Source of the DNA: an uncultured Desulfuromonadales bacterium | GTDB lineage: Bacteria > Desulfobacterota > Desulfuromonadia > Geobacterales > Pseudopelobacteraceae | Reading direction: 5' to 3' | Assembly (NCBI GenBank): GCA_903868145.1 | Contig: CAIPTY010000033.1 | Span: 1 to 59,246 of the forward strand | DNA: 59,246 nucleotides | In this document: in pieces, positions 1 through 55,681 of the stretch | How the letters are laid out: every line of letters starts with the position of its first letter | How positions within the stretch are numbered: position 1 is the first letter of the stretch | Translations under genes and position numbers: made by a program | The notes under the pieces: model-generated | Databases searched by the model: none | The model's input: the letters and a program-made list of their open reading frames with translations, nothing else | Told to the model about the DNA's origin: nothing

Positions 1-1179
1 CTGCTCCCGGTTCAGATCGGTGTCCAGTACCAGATCGGTCATGCCGATGATGCCGTTCATGGGGGTGCGGATCTCATGGCTCATGTTGGCAAGAAATTCA
101 CTCTTGGAACGATTCGCTGACTCGGCTGAGTCTTTGGCGGCCTGAAGCATAACATTCTGCTCCGCGATGGCCTGCTCCCTGATGCGGGTCTCATCCAGGC
201 GGGTGTTGAGGCTTGTGGTGTGGATGCTTGCCCTGATCATGGCCACGGCGCCGAAGAGTATCAGCAGGCCGATACCCCCGGTAACCGCCAGAAGGCGACT
301 CGGCGATCCCTCATCAACCTCTATTGCCGGTATGAAGACAGCCACTGCAAAGGGGGTCGAACTCACCGAAATTCTGAAGGCCGTCATCTCCAGCGATTCA
401 CGCATGGGAATCGGTACCAGAAAATGGATCGGCTCGCGTTCTTTCAGGTTGTGGGGCATGGTTAAATCGTTGCGTGTTATCAGGCTGTCGTTTGCGATGG
501 CTGTGTAAAGATAGGTTTTCTCGAACAGCAGGGCCATCATGTTCGTTTTATTTGTAGTACCGGCAAGAAAATGACGGTAGATGTCTGCCGGAGAAATCCA
601 GGCCAGAATATGTCCGTTTCCCCGCTCCTTGAAGATGTAAGGCACCGAAATTATGATACGGGCAGACTCGTTCTCCCCTTCGGCAAAAAAACGCGTTTTC
701 TTTCCCTGTTGTCCGGTATAGCTCTTCCAGCTTCGATCTTCATTTTTTTTGGGCGTTATGCTGGAATCGCGGGCATCCAGCAGGAGATGCCCGGAGGAAT
801 CCACGAAAACAACCCGCTTATAAAGAGCAGTGTCACCAAGGAGTTTCTTCTTCTGGAATGCCTCAAACACGGCGTTGGCTTCATCCAGACTCGCGGCCAG
901 GCCGTACTCCATGGACATGCCGAGCGCCATATTTTCAAAGTAAGCCGAAAGTTCACGATTGACGGCCAGTTCCTGGAGATCGTTCAGCCGTTCGGAAAAG
1001 AAATAGCCCAGCGCCTGGGAGCGTTTGTCCGCATCATCCAGCAAACGTGCACGGCTGGAACGCTGCATTTCACTGCGAGAATGGTAGAGATCCGTCAGGA
1101 GAAAACCGAGGTAAGCGACCAGTGACAGGCCGATAATAAGTGGCGCTATGCGCTGTATGCCGGTAAATAGTCTGGACAT
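1..1179 (-). CDS. Membrane sensor histidine kinase, N-terminal part (cut by window edge)
   Basis: The reverse strand reads open from an ATG at 1179 to the window edge (393 codons). It shows a transmembrane helix near residues 7-27, an extracytoplasmic sensing domain of about 290 residues, a second helix near 320-340, a short coiled linker and the start of a HisKA domain with the phosphoacceptor motif [10 protein letters not shown]. The ATPase domain and any receiver lie outside the window. The kinase starts 51 bases downstream of the solute-binding protein gene on the same strand, so the two are probably co-transcribed and the binding protein may present a ligand to this sensor; that link is inferred. 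Its output is unknown. The motif is nearly the same as in the larger kinase at 4825-8742, so the two are related hybrid-type kinases. Confidence 0.85.
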
Positions 1180-4824: not shown

Positions 4825-7800
4825 TTATTTATCCTGAGCGCCCCCCGCGAACCATCGCCCGATCATCTCCGCGAGTATCTCCTTTTTAACCGGTTTGGCG
4901 ATATAATCATCCATACCGCCTTCAATACATTTCTCACGGTCACCCTGCATGGCGTTGGCGGTCATGGCGATGATCGGGACGGCGTGGTTCAGAACCTTCG
5001 ATTCAGGATTGCGGATAATGGCGGTGGCTTCAAAGCCGTCCATCTCGGGCATCAGGCAGTCCATCAGCACCAGATCGTAGTTGATCAGCTCCAGGGCTTT
5101 TACCGCTTCAAGGCCGTTGGCTACCACGTCGGCTTTGTAGCCCAGTTTGCTCAGCATGCTCTGGGCTACTTTCTGGTTGATGATGTTGTCTTCGGCCAGA
5201 AGGATGCGAATGCCCCGCTCGCCGTATTCGGCTACGGTGTACCGCGTGACGATCCCTGTGACCGGGGGGATTATGAGGTCGGGGGCTTGCCGGGATCTCC
5301 CCAGTACCAGGGCGATGCAGTCGTGCAACTGTGACTGGCGCACCGGTTTGGCAAGATAGCCGACAAAACCGATCTGCTCCAGGATGCCTGCGTCTCCCCG
5401 CTGCCCGAGTGAGGTTACCATTACCATGAGGGTTGATTTAAGAAGCGGGTCCGCCTTGATCCTGCGGCCCAGCTCGAGGCCGTCCATGCCGGGCATCTCC
5501 TGGTCCAGCAGAGCCACTTGGAAGGGGTCTCCTTCGTGGGCTGCCTGGAGCAGAATCTCCAGCCCGGATGCTCCGTCTACGGCTTCGCTGTGGCGACATC
5601 CCCAGTGGTTCAGCAGGGTGGTTATGAGAAGGCGGTTGGTGGTGTTGTCGTCTACTACGAGTATACGGGTGCCGGATATGCTGGAATGTTTCATCAACTC
5701 TGCGGCTTTGGAGATGTCGGAGGCTTGTACGGTCTGCTTCTCGAATTTCGCGGTGAACCAGAAGGTGGAGCCGTTGCCGTCTGTGCTGGTGACGCCGATG
5801 TTGCCCCCCATGAGTTCCACCAGTTGTTTGCAGATGGCAAGACCCAGACCGGTGCCGCCGTATTTGCGGGTGGTGGAGCCGTCTACCTGGGTGAAGGGGG
5901 AGAAGAGGGCGTCGATTCGATCTGCGGGGATCCCGATGCCGGAGTCGTGAATCTCGAACAGAATGGTCGCGAAGCCGTCCTGGTCTGATATGAGGGTAGT
6001 GTTGATAACTACTTCGCCCTGATGGGTGAATTTGATGGCGTTGCCTGTAAGGTTCATGATGATCTGACGGATTCTGCCGGGGTCGCCTTTGAGGTATGAG
6101 GGGACATGCGGATCGATGCGGCAGATCAGTTCGAGTCCTTTTTCAGAGGCACGAAGGGAGAGCAGGTCTACGGTATCTTCCAGGGTGGGGCGCAGGTCGA
6201 AGTCGAGTATCTCCAGATCCATTTTACCGGCTTCTATTTTGGAGAAGTCCAGGATGTCGTTGATGAGGGTGAGCAGGCTCTCACCGCTTTTCCGGACGAT
6301 TTCCGTGTAGTCGCGCTGCTCCTGGTTCAGTTCGGTGTCCAGCAGCAGGCTGGTCATGCCGATGACGCCGTTCATAGGGGTGCGGATCTCGTGGCTCATG
6401 GTGGCAAGAAAGGAACTCTTGGCCTGGGTGGCGGATTCGGCCTTGTCTTTGGCTTTTTCCAGTTCCTGCAGCGTCAGTTTGAGTTCGGTTATGTTCTCAT
6501 GTGATACCACGGCATAATTGATACCAGATACAGTAAAAGGGTTCATCCGACAGATGAACCAGCGATTCTCGGTCGGGGAATGGCAGGGGTATTCCTTGAC
6601 AAATTCCGACATGGTACCATTGATGACTGCATTTACGGCTGAGGCGAATTCCTCAACCTCCTGCTTTTCGTCTTCACAGGCTGTCCTGCAAGCTTCCAGA
6701 TAACTGGCGCCCGTGCCGCACGAACCTTCAGCGGCGTTGTTCTCAATTGCAAATCTGTTCCAGGGGCGGTTGGTAATAACAATCTTTCCCGCTGCGTCAA
6801 TCACGCAGATATGGGAGCTCAGTCCATCCAGCGTGGAATGGATGAACTGCTCCTGCTTGCGAAGGGTCTCTGCAGCCTGCTTCCGCTCGGTTATGTCCGA
6901 GAAGGTGACAACTGCTCCGCTGAATAGACCGTTCTCAAAAATGGGGTATGATGAAAACTCTGCATCAAAGGAGCTTCCGTCCTTGCGCCAGAGCAGCTCG
7001 TCGTCCGCCCGGCAGCTCTCACGGGCGGCATTGGCCCGGTAAATGGGGCACTCCGTTGCAGGATAGGGTGAACCGTCGGCATGGCTGTGGTGGATGGTAC
7101 TGTGCGAGTCCCTGCCCACAAGTTCCTCGATCTCGTAGCCAAGAATATCCAGACCGGCCCTGTTGACGTAGGTGAAACAACCGTTTTCGTCAGTGCCATA
7201 GATGCCCTGATCGGTGGTCTGGAGTAACAGTTTTACTTTGGCTTCTGCCGCCTGGGACTCGTCCAGGGCCAGACCCAGTTGTGACTCCAGCTCCTTTTGA
7301 ACAGATATATCATCAAAAATCCAGATACTGCCGAAATCAGGTCGGGTCGGGTCTACCGCCTTGCCGGAAAACCTGGCCGTAAAGAAGCTGCCGTCGCCGC
7401 GTTGCACCTGCAGGTCTTTTAAAATCGTTTCACCGCGCAGCATGGTGGGATAGGCCTCTGCACCAAGCTCCTCATACTCTTCCTGTGACTTATAGATTAT
7501 CCTGGTGCTGGCACCTGACAACTCTTTGAGACTGTAGCCGAACATCGTGCAGAAGGTGGCATTGCACCACGCAATATGACGATCCTTGACAAATGTGATG
7601 CCTAACCCGGCATTTTCGAGGATGATCCTCTGCTCTTCCGAGAGCCGCCGCTGCTCCTGTTCGCGGTGATGCAGCATATCCAGAAGCGAATTGAAGGAAT
7701 CTGCCAGAAGTCCCAGTTCATTGGAGTGATCAGCGTCAAGCCGCTGAGACATGTCAGCATCGCCTTGAGTCAAGCTTTGAAGCTGTTGTGTAAAGTCTGT

Positions 7801-31111: not shown

Positions 31112-31225
31112 TTTTCAATCACCCGTCAGGGATGGCACCCTGATGTGAGTTGAGCACGAGCCAAGAACCGTGAGGAATTGTCTCCCCTTTCGGATCGGGC
31201 GAAATTAACCATGAAGGAGTAGATC

Positions 31226-51881: not shown

Positions 51882-53126
51882 TTATTTCACTGCATTAAAA
51901 AGATGCTCCGCTTCGGAAATATCATGAGCCGACAAGCCGATTTTCCTGGCACGAGCCTTCCACCCACTGATAACTTTGACCACCCGAGTGATAATCTCCT
52001 GTGTCTGATCCATACCGAGACGATAGTATTCCCTAGTTTCCCGTACGACAGCCATATCCGGCTGCCGGGTATAGATATCAAGGGCTAGGGCATGTTCATC
52101 TTTCTTGAAGGACGGGTTCATGTCAAAGGCCGGGGCAAGCCGCCAGCCGGAAGGAGTCCTCATGAAACCGTGATTGCGCAAATGATCGTCTCGGTTAGCG
52201 GTGGCAACGTTGAAAACAACTCTGGTGAAAAGCTCCTTGAGATCACTGGTGATATGATCGGGCACGCCCCAGGTGGCGATAAACTCGGCCAACTCCAGAT
52301 AACTGGCTTCCTCGATATCCTGATGCCCGGTCATGGTCGTGGCTGACGCAAAGAAGCGTCTGGTGGTACCAACCCGGTCAAATCGTTTCACCATGAAGGT
52401 GTGATAGCCGCCACCGATCTGCATGAGACGTGAAGCGGGAACGGTAATCCCGCAATCCCTCGCAAGTTCGTGCAGCAGCATCTCCCAGAGTGCGACATCG
52501 TATGCATCGTCGGCTGACGGAAACTTGGCAATCCAGAGGCTGCCGTCCTCGTCCACCAGATTGGCTTTCGGGCGGGCACCGCCGAGAGATGAGCCGGGTG
52601 CGACCAGAACCCTCAGCCATTCCTTTATCTTGTCCAGGTCATCCTGCTTCTTCCTGGTCAACTCAAAGGCCACTGCCTGCAGTTCGGCAATCCGGGCAAT
52701 AGGCGGTGCTGAAAGCGCTTCATCGGCCAGAAAAATATCCGCATCCGGGCGGCTCATCCGGAGTGCTCCTATACGGGTGCAGTCCTGGATCCCAAGCAGG
52801 AACTCCCATACTCCGAGTGTTCTAGGCGTGCGTCCCTGTTCCCGGGCCTCGACAGCCTCCCGGCGTTTCATCAGAACTTGTCCCCATCGGTCGGGGCAGG
52901 AATCCATGAAGACACCGAAGTTGGCATTGCCCGGGTAAAACTCACCGGCAGTCAGGTCCAGTTCCGGATCAAGCGGGAAGGCATGGGCCTTCTTCGGCCA
53001 GGCCGCGTCATAGGCAAAGCGCACACTTCCCCGGTCACCACGGGACAAAGTGCCGATCCGCTGCAAGGGGCCGAATGACGGATCATCAAGCCAGACCCAG
53101 ATCTGTTCGCCTTGTACTCTAGCCAC
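51882..53126 (-). CDS. hipA: HipA-family kinase toxin
   Basis: I place the start at the GTG at 53126, which overlaps the end of hipB by eight bases, giving 414 residues; an in-frame ATG at 53186 is the alternative. The protein has the HipA N-terminal domain, a central GGARPKANLVDEDGSLWIAKF (glycine-rich/Lys region), catalytic NRDDHLRNHGF and the PAFDMNPSF metal-binding segment. HipA-type kinases phosphorylate a tRNA synthetase or similar target and stop growth until HipB binds. The gene lies in what seems to be a second, decayed element. Confidence 0.88.
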   Translation of the reverse strand: MARVQGEQIWVWLDDPSFGPLQRIGTLSRGDRGSVRFAYDAAWPKKAHAFPLDPELDLTAGEFYPGNANFGVFMDSCPDRWGQVLMKRREAVEAREQGRTPRTLGVWEFLLGIQDCTRIGALRMSRPDADIFLADEALSAPPIARIAELQAVAFELTRKKQDDLDKIKEWLRVLVAPGSSLGGARPKANLVDEDGSLWIAKFPSADDAYDVALWEMLLHELARDCGITVPASRLMQIGGGYHTFMVKRFDRVGTTRRFFASATTMTGHQDIEEASYLELAEFIATWGVPDHITSDLKELFTRVVFNVATANRDDHLRNHGFMRTPSGWRLAPAFDMNPSFKKDEHALALDIYTRQPDMAVVRETREYYRLGMDQTQEIITRVVKVISGWKARARKIGLSAHDISEAEHLFNAVK

Positions 53127-53457
53127 TTGATCCGCCAGTTTGTCGTGTCTTCTTGGGAGCCCTCTTCCGGTGCGGCAACGCTTCATCCTGGAGACGCCGA
53201 CCCAAGGTATCTTCCTTTGCGATCAAACCCAGATCCTCCACCATCCCCAGGACACGCACCACTTGTACGTACATCCCCATAGCAACGGACGGGTCACCTT
53301 TTTCAACTTTGTAGAGGGTGGGCCGCGATATATCGGCTCTGGCACAGACGGTCTCCATTGAAAAACGGCGGCGCAAGCGCGCATCCTTGAGGCGCTGCCC
53401 CAAGGCTTCGAGTTCTTTTGCCGAAGATGAATATAGTGTAACGGTTCTCTTATTCAT
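53119..53457 (-). CDS. hipB: HipB-like antitoxin/repressor (XRE HTH)
   Basis: The 112-residue protein has a five-helix XRE domain (LGQRLKDARLRRRFSMETVC, then ADISRPTLYKVEKGDPSV) and a basic C-terminal tail. Its stop overlaps the likely hipA start, as is normal for this toxin-antitoxin pair. It has no visible ribosome-binding site, and its promoter -10 is only 11 bases upstream, so the mRNA may be nearly leaderless. It should repress its own promoter. Confidence 0.88.
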   Translation of the reverse strand: MNKRTVTLYSSSAKELEALGQRLKDARLRRRFSMETVCARADISRPTLYKVEKGDPSVAMGMYVQVVRVLGMVEDLGLIAKEDTLGRRLQDEALPHRKRAPKKTRQTGGSSG

Positions 53458-53700: not shown

Positions 53701-54051
53701 TTTTGGTGCGTCCGAACCGCAACATTATCAAAAAGGACACCGTATTGACCACCAGACGGCTCAAACCGCAGACCTGTTATGGATATGGAAGCAATGGCGT
53801 TGTTGATCTGTATTGTGAGAAAGAAAGATGATCTTGTGCAACCCTTTGATGCGGGATATAAGATATAGAGACGGGATATAAAGGGATTGGATCAGTGATG
53901 ATGCGGGGTTGTGGTGAATCGTGCGTCAGGAAAACGTTCCGAAGTAAAAACGGCTGAAAAAGTAGTTCTTGTGTAAAACAGATGAAGCCGGTAGCAACAG
54001 GGAAATATTTAAGAATGTAATTCTTGTGTAAACATCCCTTAAAGATAATTC

Positions 54052-54074
54052 AAAAAAAATCCCCACGGCTGGGG
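54052..54074 (-). terminator. Terminator of the tRNA-like/structured RNA locus
   Basis: On the minus strand CCCCA-GCCG-TGGGG is followed by ATTTTTTTT. It lies 72 bases after the last structured element and should end its transcript. Confidence 0.75.
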
Positions 54075-54146
54075 CCTTTAACCTCCCAGTTCCATGCCAC
54101 TGTTGCCGCATCGACCTAAAGTTTTGTCACCCGTGGAGATCTAAAA

Positions 54147-54234
54147 GGCGGCTGGGGGTTCTCCCTACTGGCCCCCACGCGATCCGCTTTCACAAGCGTC
54201 CTACGGCCGGGAGATTCACCGTGTTTCAGCCGCC
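54147..54234 (-). ncRNA. Unassigned structured RNA element, copy A
   Basis: The 88-base element is closed by GGCGGCTG/CAGCCGCC. Nested inside are TCTCCC/GGGAGA, GGCC/GGCC and CGCTT/AAGCG, with unpaired ACACGGTGAA and GTAGGA segments. All stems stack in one order on the minus strand. It lies between a tRNA-like sequence and a terminator. I do not recognise it as any known riboswitch or RNA family. Confidence 0.55.
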
Positions 54235-54280
54235 TGTACGACAATAACATTATTCCAAAATCTTGTGTAGATACATATGC

Positions 54281-54366
54281 GGGCGCATCCGGGATCGAAC
54301 CGGAGACCTAGCGACTCATGCTGAATGAAAGCCGAGTCCCTTGCTCTTCCACTGAGCTATACGCCC
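54281..54366 (-). pseudogene. tRNA-like sequence with abnormal anticodon arm
   Basis: Acceptor GGGCGTA pairs with TGCGCCC, the D stem is GCTC/GAGC and the T arm is TCCGG-TTCGATC-CCGGA, all good. The anticodon arm is odd: GACTC ... GAGTC encloses GCT-TTCATTC-AGC, with CAT in the tRNA-like loop, and extra bases remain on both sides. The 3' end reads GCA, not CCA, though the other tRNA genes in this window encode CCA. Confidence 0.5.
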
Positions 54367-54378
54367 CTGTTGAAACTA

Positions 54379-54466
54379 GGCGGCTGGGGGTTCTCCCTAC
54401 TGGCCCCGACGCGATCCGCTTTTGCAAGCGTCCTACGGCCGGGAGATTCACCGTGTTTCAGCCGCC
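54379..54466 (-). ncRNA. Unassigned structured RNA element, copy B
   Basis: It has the same 88-base length as copy A and nearly the same sequence, shifted by 232 bases. Differences fall mainly in the hairpin loop (CGCTT/AAGCG stem kept). A decayed tRNA-like tail (54508-54540) lies before it, lacking D and anticodon arms. Confidence 0.55.
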
Positions 54467-54615
54467 TGTACGACAATAACATTATTCCAAAATCTTGTGT
54501 ATATACATATTGCGGGGCGCATCCGGGATAGAACCTGAAGCTTGCTCTTAACCTTAGTGATATCACGCCACGGCTCGCCCAGGGTGTGAGCTGTTGTTTT
54601 GTCACGGCGGACATA

Positions 54616-55209
54616 TTACCGCCCCTTTGCTGCCCTCATCGCGTAAAGTTCTGCCATTAATTCAGCTTTCTTATCAATGTCGAGCGTGCCGGGGTTGATT
54701 GATTCATAAAGATCAGCTTCCTTGATGATATCCTTCAGCAAATCAACCCGTACGAAACCGGAATCCCTTTCAGAGATAAGCTTAGGAATACCCGGAACGC
54801 CAAACATCCAGTCAACACTAATACCCAGTTGACAAGAAAGAACATTCATAAGGCTAAAATCAGCTTCCATTTTATTGTCTTCAATAGCCTGGATTGTTGC
54901 AATCCACTTGTCAGGATCAGTGAACTTGACCTTGTGGACAAATTCGGGAATAGTCATCTCCCCCCTGATTTCCTTTAACTTCCCAGACCACCAGCCACAA
55001 GCCCCCCTTTCTTCCCCCAGCCCAGTCAGCAACCAGCCTGAGTTTATATATGGAAACTCTACCAAAATCTTATTTAAAAAATCAGCGTCCGGTGTTCTCA
55101 GTCCGGTTTCATAGTTCACAAGTGTTGTCTTGCTGATACACATTATTGGTGCAAACTTGTCTCTCGACAGGTTGCCCCTAATGGTTTTAATACGCTCGCC
55201 AATAGTCAT
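54616..55209 (-). CDS. Prophage repressor with two HTH-like domains
   Basis: The 197-residue protein has an XRE-type domain at residues 1-60 (GERIKTIRGNLSRDKFAPIM, ISKTTLVNYETGLRTP). A second, similar segment follows at about 72-145 (SGKLKEIRGEMTIPEFVHKV ... LGISVDWMFGVPG). Both halves end in a typical WLLTGLG or WMFGVPG turn, so the protein looks like an internal duplication. It is divergent from the Ner-like gene, like the c repressor of transposable phages. Confidence 0.8.
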   Translation of the reverse strand: MTIGERIKTIRGNLSRDKFAPIMCISKTTLVNYETGLRTPDADFLNKILVEFPYINSGWLLTGLGEERGACGWWSGKLKEIRGEMTIPEFVHKVKFTDPDKWIATIQAIEDNKMEADFSLMNVLSCQLGISVDWMFGVPGIPKLISERDSGFVRVDLLKDIIKEADLYESINPGTLDIDKKAELMAELYAMRAAKGR

Positions 55210-55393
55210 AAAAACATCCGATTTCTAAGGGTTAGAAGTCGGATGTTTTAGAAAAACCCTCCGACTTTTACAACTTGCTAAAAAGATTAAAGAATCAATA
55301 AAATTATCCATCACTCCACAAAAAACGAAGTTGGATGAAAAATAAATCAAAAATATGATTGACAGAATCACTTATTTGATTTATTTGTTCCCC

Positions 55394-55681
55394 ATGTCAA
55401 CCACACCAAGACCAAAAGAACCCCACCTGTTTAGGGAGTGGGTCAAGTACGAACTGAAGCTCAGGGGCTACACCATGACAGCAGTGGCAAAAACTCAGGG
55501 TGTAGGCCGTGAGGTTCCGTCAAGTGTATTCAGAAGGCACCGGCCAAAATGGGAAAAGATTATTGCCAATATTCTGGAGATGATGCCCTGCGAATTGTGG
55601 CCGGAACGCTACCCCGGTGAAAGTGTAATTGTTCCTGTTGGCAAGCGTAAATCTACAAGAAAAACGCGGGGGGCGCAATGA
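55394..55681 (+). CDS. Ner/Nlp-like DNA-binding protein
   Basis: The protein starts MSTTPRPKEPHLFREWVKYE and has a short HTH (YTMTAVAKTQGVGREVPSSVF), as in Ner and SfsB/Nlp proteins, which repress early transcription in Mu-like phages. The start is uncertain; an in-frame ATG at 55355 exists and neither start has a strong ribosome-binding site. It is followed by a gene overlapping by ATGA. Confidence 0.75.
   Translation: MSTTPRPKEPHLFREWVKYELKLRGYTMTAVAKTQGVGREVPSSVFRRHRPKWEKIIANILEMMPCELWPERYPGESVIVPVGKRKSTRKTRGAQ

Follow-up and report, generated by a model that had tools for sequence, protein, structure and literature searches.

Kissing-cloverleaf RNAs paired with PBECR3-type MuF genes of Mu-like phages, a candidate class of tRNA-mimic immunity factors

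An array of cloverleaf RNAs behind a phage repressor-like gene

The DNA analysed here (the window) is a contig of 59,246 nucleotides from an uncultured Desulfuromonadales bacterium, the minus strand of which carries an array of small RNA elements directly downstream of a phage repressor-like helix-turn-helix gene (54616-55209, minus strand; Pfam HTH_19 and HTH_3). Divergent from the repressor gene are an HTH_35 gene (55355-55681, plus strand; Pfam HTH_35, 1.2e-13), of the Pfam family that includes Mu Ner, and a second gene with a sub-threshold match to CII (Phage_CP76); both would suit the left end of a Mu-like prophage. The far side of the array region carries HipB/HipA-like genes and an integrase. 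A ACACAAGA-type short repeat occurs three times downstream of the array (53824-53842, 53959-53977 and 54014-54032), and by eye in both linkers of the array too; these repeats may represent sites bound by a transposase or a repressor at the end of a Mu-like phage. Elsewhere in the window, an L20-Deltaproteobacteria ribosomal protein leader (RF03126, 62.5 bits) is located at 31159-31219 on the plus strand, as expected for the host group.

An earlier, sequence-only reading of the locus had described two units repeated with a 232-base shift, each consisting of a tRNA-like sequence, a linker and an 88-base element closed by GGCGGCTG/CAGCCGCC. The direct repeat with this shift extends over 133 nt with 97% identity, the 88-base element is present in both copies, and the linker (54236-54278, minus strand), which runs from the tRNA-like RNA to the second copy, is repeated ahead of the first. 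The 88-base element forms an RNA that we term the kissing cloverleaf. Copy 1, including its outer pair, spans 54378-54467 (minus strand; 89.3 bits with RNA model R1; 86.3 bits, E 1.9e-22, with model R2), and copy 2 spans 54146-54235 (minus strand; R1 93.3 bits; R2 87.2 bits, E 1.1e-22). P1 of copy 1 is formed by AGGCGGCTG/CAGCCGCCT, its loop 2 (CTCCC) pairs with loop 4 (GGGAG), and the closing P4 pair is lost. The expectation that the copies differ mainly in the loop while the stems are kept holds for two of the three differences, which fall in the P3 loop, and fails for the third, which is the change that breaks the P4 pair in copy 1. Comparison of the folds of the two 88-base elements with 200 shuffles gave z scores of -2.2 (7/200 shuffles as good) and -3.5 (1/200).

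A whole tRNA-like RNA, which has an enlarged anticodon arm and lacks an encoded CCA, is present once, at 54279-54366 (minus strand). ARAGORN reports it as tRNA-Pro (cgg), and it scores 46.6 bits against the Rfam tRNA model RF00005 (gathering threshold 29), with 19 bases in the anticodon loop region compared with 4 in the model, so that the anticodon arm is not ordinary. The tRNA-like sequence of the upstream unit is a remnant comprising the T arm and part of the acceptor (54498-54538, minus strand; direct repeat D2, 76% identity over 41 nt). The strong terminator that was thought to close the unit is seen as a terminator-like stem and T run (54052-54074, minus strand; terminator-like site 54074-54061, then the T run), which carries little weight by itself because two terminator-like sites were found on both strands of a 901-base region compared with 0.9 in shuffles, and which ends a third element rather than the repeated unit. 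This third element (54059-54140, minus strand) fits a cloverleaf descriptor with a CTTTA/TAAAG loop-loop pairing and a different core, and the 3' strand of its P1 runs into the terminator. None of 100 shuffles fitted the descriptor, and the fold had a z score of -3.1. It had no R1 match at E 1, and a pattern search for homologues returned at least 120 stretches, none of which, by eye, has its fold. No sigma-70-type or otherwise good promoter match was found in the linkers, and copies 1 and 2 likewise had no good -10 match.

Fold, strand and distribution of the RNA family

Searching Rfam 15 with the 88-base element gave no match at the gathering thresholds or at E <=10, in keeping with the earlier failure to match it to a known family, and members of other subclasses from 12 loci had no Rfam match at E <=1. 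The element had no match to the tRNA covariance model either, the sole tRNA match (E <=10) within 53900-54700 being that at 54280-54366. A DNA search of 97 genomes around the host found one further true copy, in a genome of the same family (G016), inside a Mu-like prophage; a 29-base match in G085 was rejected as a member, the rest of the fold being missing. The search pattern ACACGGTGA-N4-12-CCGTAGGAC matched 48 stretches in viral contigs and 81 in genome contigs. Of 133 pattern occurrences, 107 had a P1 score of at least 6 and 94 of these were distinct; after removal by hand of L096, L062, L084, L102, L088 and L066, 87 were kept. L042 and L068 were also dropped before alignment A1 (85 rows), and 36 of the sequences were used for alignment A2 and RNA model R1. 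The P1 score cut left out real members (L107 and the partial members L017, L071, L081 and L125), of which L107 was regained by the model.

The element is about 90 nt long, with arms in the cloverleaf order P1 (about 7-14 pairs), P2 (ACGG/CCGT), P3 and P4; P4 directly abuts P1, and a pseudoknot joins loops 2 and 4. Among 36 close sequences, 96.0% of alignment cells are paired and double changes number 165, compared with 45 in shuffles. Across 87 sequences and 28 pairs, in an alignment fitted to the nested pairs of the model and not to the pseudoknot, 96.7% of cells are paired and 648 cells are changed on both sides, the corresponding figures being 186 (sd 13) for shuffles and no more than 115 for slid controls; such changes occur at 22 of the 28 pairs. 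An exact reverse complement of the loop-2 pentamer is found downstream in 79 of the 86 rows with the core motif, and the loop 2/loop 4 pairing occurs as 11 sequence types (CUCCC/GGGAG and ten others). The covarying pairs form a cloverleaf plus a loop 2/loop 4 pseudoknot, in place of the three nested stems proposed from the single sequence, and a fully nested fold was rejected on these grounds. The Rfam, homologue and covariation searches that the sequence-only reading had suggested thus gave no Rfam match, many homologues and overwhelming covariation, and its view of the element as a selected structured RNA stands.

Because the search pattern dictates P2 and the junction, their lack of variation in alignments A1-A4 is imposed, and P2 is not open to judgement from the main alignments. 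Two junction positions, GG/UC in pattern members, vary among the members found by the model without the pattern and read by eye: they are CC/GG in L136, L137, L142 and L143, GC/GC in L139 and AC/GU in copy 2 of L090, while L138 keeps one of the two junction pairs and L140 could not be aligned. This variation adds two pairs at the foot of P3. In L136, L137 and L143 (two genomes of one genus), the junction variant with the CCGTACCAC core is located about 260 nt past the end of a umuC-type polymerase gene, in convergent orientation. The strand is as stated, since G-U occupies 38 cells of the inner pairs and A-C only 4. A -10 box (5 or all 6 matches) is present in 35 of the 87 upstream flanks compared with 10 in shuffles, and in 5 of 87 in a reverse-strand control of the other flank. 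Boxes with at least four matches number 57, of which 42 end 3-8 nt ahead of P1; many members therefore look like independent small transcripts that start at P1, and the position of these boxes suggests that the kissing-cloverleaf RNA is probably transcribed independently.

Model-confirmed members are found in records of Alpha-, Beta-, Gamma- and Deltaproteobacteria, and in those of Sulfurospirillum, Nitrospirae, Bacteroidetes, Ignavibacteriales, Chitinispirillia, Verrucomicrobia and Candidatus Jettenia, some of which may be misplaced because many records are metagenome bins. Among 277 genomes of the window's class, a model search found the RNA in seven, including the window's own. Tandem copies are seen only in the window and in the loci L090 (600-858, minus strand; one copy with the AC/GU junction) and L099 (6939-7173, minus strand). 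Searches with blastn against isolated phages gave six weak matches in one search (best E 1e-3, to the tRNA-like part) and otherwise none, and those against plasmids gave no match; protein-anchored fetching gave Mannheimia phage 3927AP2 as a carrier. The kissing-cloverleaf RNA is a widespread family across many bacterial phyla that has no Rfam entry. It is apparently undescribed, as no title or abstract beginning among the open-access matches listed gives a description of it. The guide RNA with GGY repeats in the accessible text of PMC13142463 is different from the kissing cloverleaf.

In tRNA, too, the arms have this order and the second and fourth loops interact, and the tRNA resemblance resides in the 88-base element itself, with its cloverleaf and interacting loops. 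The coupling of a compact RNA to a tRNA-like domain was correctly recognised for the window, and it had been likened to YrlA and Y RNAs, in which a tRNA-like part adjoins a compact RNA. The window array shares that arrangement and differs from YrlA in having no Rfam match and no visible Ro partner (no Ro-type match in the ten window proteins scanned), and a tRNA neighbour is not general in the family. ARAGORN found four tRNA genes in the 34 loci scanned, which are those outside the MuF setting described below, and the YrlA/Y RNA reading has no support: most relatives are without an adjoining tRNA, and neither an Rfam match nor a Ro-type match was found. In L013, a tRNA-Thr gene (1034-1109, minus strand) immediately precedes a kissing cloverleaf in the same orientation, an order that recalls the window.

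Pairing of the RNA with PBECR3-type MuF genes

The 3' end of the RNA faces the Mu-like head gene MuF in 53 of the 87 unique elements (a count that omits L042, the MuF of which runs off the stretch edge), with the RNA antisense to the gene. The distance to the MuF stop codon is -28 to +8 nt in 51 of these 53, and in L124 the RNA is 278 nt away. A match to PF04233 (Phage_Mu_F) was found in 44 of the 49 facing proteins tested. Outward from the RNA, MuF is followed by the Mu portal gene, and on the other side of the RNA are the virion morphogenesis gene (G) and protease I. A riboswitch or cis-acting leader was rejected, as the RNA usually ends at the stop of a convergent gene and has no co-directed gene after it.

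The facing MuF proteins have a C-terminal domain in common, in which the Pfam domain PBECR3 (PF18812) was matched at E 0.01 in 19 of the 49, with a best value of 1.8e-8; the score of L008 was 27.0 bits, below the curated cut-off of 30. PBECR3-type proteins were grouped with our own HMM (E <1e-15), which was built from RNA-linked MuF proteins. An AlphaFold2 model of the C-terminal domain of L030 (pLDDT 93.5) had as its closest solved folds the ribonuclease toxin BrnT (Z 6.6) and a Salmonella toxin-antitoxin chain (7vd7, 6.5), followed by chains of two CDI toxin-immunity systems (7m5f, 5.8, and 6cp9, 5.1), and many RelE/HigB chains were also in the list; all Z scores are below 8, and 6.6 is a middling value. 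BrnT also ranked first with Foldseek (E 1.1e-3), with nothing at E <=0.001. A BECR/RelE-like fold of the MuF C-terminal domain is supported, but not proven, by this model, and we infer that the domain is a ribonuclease. In the accessible text of PMC5512222, PBECR is a predicted ribonuclease class at the MuF C-terminus that is inactive in Mu and likely active in orthologues.

The association was examined in Mu-type loci that were fetched by their portal gene, scored for MuF with HMMs and searched for the RNA. Of 91 loci with MuF, the RNA was present in 36/38 with a PBECR3-type domain and in 0/53 others (Fisher 2e-23). Exclusion of 12 contigs already known from the RNA pattern left 24/26 vs 0/53 (Fisher 3e-18), and clustering at 80% identity gave 16/17 PBECR3-type clusters vs 0/25 others (Fisher 1e-10). 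Loci without a scorable MuF were left out (17 of 81 portal loci); among 30 new loci, two (L365 and L375) were without a scorable MuF and a third (L380) broke off at the stop codon. Because RNA-bearing phages supplied the portal queries, carriers are enriched and the carrier share is biased; we see no way in which such a bias makes a contrast between domain types. The two misses, L297 and L298, are near-duplicates, and at the same spot L298 has a divergent cloverleaf with CTCCC/GGGAG pairing, a fit that 1/100 shuffles also gave. L303, counted among the 53, has a Pfam PBECR3 match of 28.9 bits, is not strong by our own HMM and has no R2 match behind MuF, and the RNA is thus tied to a PBECR3 subtype. 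The pairing of the RNA with PBECR3-type MuF is well supported. In partial Mantel tests, RNA distance correlated with the nuclease part of MuF at 0.38-0.41 and with the head part at 0.30-0.32, each value above all 2000 permutations, which hints that the RNA may track the C-terminal part of MuF a little more closely than the N-terminal one. The Mu-like locus of L298 also has, upstream (10-94, plus strand), a C4 antisense RNA (RF01695, 65.1 bits).

Of 274 phage records with a MuF match, ten were examined. Mannheimia phage vB_MhM_3927AP2 carries a PBECR3-type MuF and the RNA (R2 E 9.9e-12), and phage B23 (L355) has a PBECR3-type domain (6e-21) and no recognisable RNA. In Ochrobactrum phage POA1180, the domain is accompanied by a foldable antisense stretch outside the cloverleaf descriptor. 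Phage Mu, with no gap between F and G, VW-6B, three Casadabanvirus phages and two Klebsiella phage records had no R2 match, and F and G adjoin in them. In the Casadabanvirus phages MP22 and JD024 (L353 and L354), annotated anti-CRISPR genes follow gene G, one gene from the RNA site.

The window array falls outside this commonest genomic context: it has no MuF gene nearby, and a PF04233 search found none in its genome. Five of the seven RNA-bearing genomes had no PF04233 match, although PF04233 misses some MuF genes. In L072 and L115, an intact RNA adjoins a reading frame that stays open solely over its final 60-65 codons, those for the end of the domain, a pattern that fits an immunity factor outliving its toxin. 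In the window and L099, and apparently also L016 and L105, the RNA follows a repressor-like gene in the same orientation, and in L132, L109 and L090 it is next to host-type genes. HipA-type genes are near the RNA in two orphan contexts (window 51882-53457; L142 86-1426).

Proposed role of the RNA and other tRNA-like RNAs behind MuF

We propose that the kissing-cloverleaf RNA, a small RNA of temperate Mu-like phages, is a tRNA-mimic immunity factor, or antitoxin, against a virion-borne ribonuclease domain, and consider this reading a likely one. The partner would be the PBECR3-like ribonuclease domain at the end of the head protein MuF. With its cloverleaf of about 90 nt locked by the loop 2/loop 4 kissing pair, the RNA would mimic the RNA recognised by the nuclease, which would probably be tRNA, and would bind the domain and keep it inactive in the lysogen and during head assembly, so that the virion would carry the domain alone into cells devoid of the RNA. 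Phages with other MuF ends, some of which have tRNA-like RNAs at the same antisense site, would use these in its stead. The orphan copies fit this reading. Judged from genome context, the RNA probably shields cells from the RNA-cutting domain of MuF. The orphan array of the window, with at least three such RNAs, may serve as prophage or host immunity against incoming MuF-carrying phages. A point against tRNA as the target is that Iyer et al. 2017 (PMC5512222) consider it possible for the PBECR domains of phages to leave tRNA intact and to cleave mRNA or CRISPR RNA.

A structural or packaging role, in which the C-terminal part of MuF would bind the RNA in the prohead (as a scaffold or pRNA-like ring) and aid assembly or ejection, would account for the conserved place of the RNA beside the portal and MuF genes; kissing loops can also be intermolecular, and the inactive domain of Mu is suggested to be RNA-binding in the accessible text of Iyer et al. 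(PMC5512222). We nevertheless consider it unlikely, as the Mu, VW-6B, Casadabanvirus and Klebsiella phage records manage with adjoining F and G and no R2 match, other MuF types have different, tRNA-like RNAs at this place, and orphan copies persist behind repressors and in genomes without a PF04233 match. The convergence of the RNA with the late operon and the -10 box of many members would also suit a cis-antisense regulator that lowers MuF or G expression by opposite-strand transcription or by pairing with the F-G messenger. Pairing with the messenger would not demand that the fold be conserved, whereas changes on both sides are seen in 22 of the 28 pairs; orphan copies face no MuF gene, and the RNA is tied to the domain type and not to the operon, leaving this reading a slim chance. 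A tRNA-like shape beside a nuclease fits an intended substrate or cofactor, for example one cleaved to regulate phage or host, as well as it fits an inhibitor; the kissing lock and the retention of the RNA where little nuclease is left fit a stable inhibitor better, although this argument is a weak one, and we regard the substrate reading as very unlikely. A general lysogeny regulator or host-acting small RNA unrelated to MuF and carried in a favoured site, to which the copies after repressor-like genes and by host-type genes could point, is barely credible given the 0/53 MuF loci with the RNA when the PBECR3-type domain is missing.

Among known systems, the proposed immunity factor invites comparison with type III toxin-antitoxin systems, in which the antitoxin RNA is a pseudoknot encoded as repeats that precede the toxin gene in the same orientation. 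In the accessible texts on ToxIN and CptIN, a protein endoribonuclease is opposed by a small structured RNA (PMC8860590, PMC4627078). The proposed opposition of a protein endoribonuclease and a small structured RNA would be alike, as would the pseudoknot-type pairing between the covarying loops 2 and 4. The kissing cloverleaf differs from the type III RNAs in being convergent and downstream (53/87), mostly single-copy and tRNA-like, and its candidate toxin in being a RelE/BECR-like domain fused to a virion protein. The ranked structure lists held no ToxN-like folds and had RelE/BECR-type best matches, although absence from a ranked list does not exclude such folds. By analogy, the RNA may be filed as working like a type III antitoxin without being a member of that family. 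To our knowledge, RelE/BECR-type ribonucleases are known only with protein antitoxins.

According to the accessible text of Jamet et al. 2017 (PMC5576092), most genes for MuF polymorphic toxins in other phages are followed by a small ORF. As far as that text goes, the loci studied here are alike in having a MuF head protein, a C-terminal effector, a candidate immunity gene next to it and temperate phages as carriers, and differ in having an antisense tRNA-like RNA at the place of the small ORF. A delivered effector made by the phage needs an immunity factor, and the simplest reading of the RNA at this place is that it is such a factor and mimics the substrate. The MuF C-terminal domain appears to be of the class of the PBECR domains of polyvalent phage proteins (Iyer et al. 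2017, PMC5512222), for which the accessible passages describe no RNA partner and the main text does not use the terms small RNA, noncoding RNA or RNA antitoxin. With tRNA (RF00005) and phage tRNA arrays, the RNA shares the cloverleaf order, a four-pair second arm and interacting loops 2 and 4, and one member of the window array scores as tRNA. It is unlike tRNA in its long P1, its Watson-Crick kissing loops and its lack of a tRNA-model match, and the tRNA-like members have altered third arms. Genome evidence links this structured RNA family to a partner protein, as is seldom the case for new RNA motifs, and the family makes the function of the MuF C-terminal domain testable, with the RNA as a candidate ligand and a hint to the target. 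If the proposed role is true, RNA can be the immunity part of virion-delivered toxins and can inhibit a RelE/BECR-type ribonuclease, and odd tRNA-like sequences in prophages would be explained.

A wider reading, in which Mu-like phages would have a class of RNA immunity factors matched to the nuclease type, with orphan arrays and a kissing cloverleaf derived from tRNA, is put forward tentatively, as somewhat short of an even chance. The kissing cloverleaf would have arisen when the contact between the D-loop and T-loop of a tRNA was replaced by base pairs. Haemophilus phage SuMu combines the domain with an antisense cloverleaf that bears both the tRNA T-arm motif and a CTCGA/TCGAG loop pairing (0/100 shuffles), and its RNA looks intermediate between tRNA and the kissing-cloverleaf family. 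The T-arm motif GGTTCRANYCC was found within 60 nt of the stop codon in 14 of 115 distinct MuF genes, 13 of these 14, several of them near-duplicates, being without a strong PBECR3-type domain. L270, L279, L282 and L285 have cloverleaf folds in which a T arm is present and the loop of the third arm is three bases long, and the minimum-energy fold of L322, which is akin to L279, is not such a cloverleaf. In L274, the tRNA-like region had no ARAGORN or cmscan match and a fold no better than shuffles (z 0.0), and the example therefore relies on its T-arm motif and P1. The MuF ends beside RNAs of the T-arm type have a weak MuF_C match or nothing in Pfam, and other MuF genes bear PBECR2 or an ADP-ribosyltransferase. 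Beside another MuF type, in L309 (about 7380-7490, minus strand), there is a foldable antisense stretch with long P1 arms that lies outside the descriptor and has a possible CAGGG/CCCTG loop pairing.
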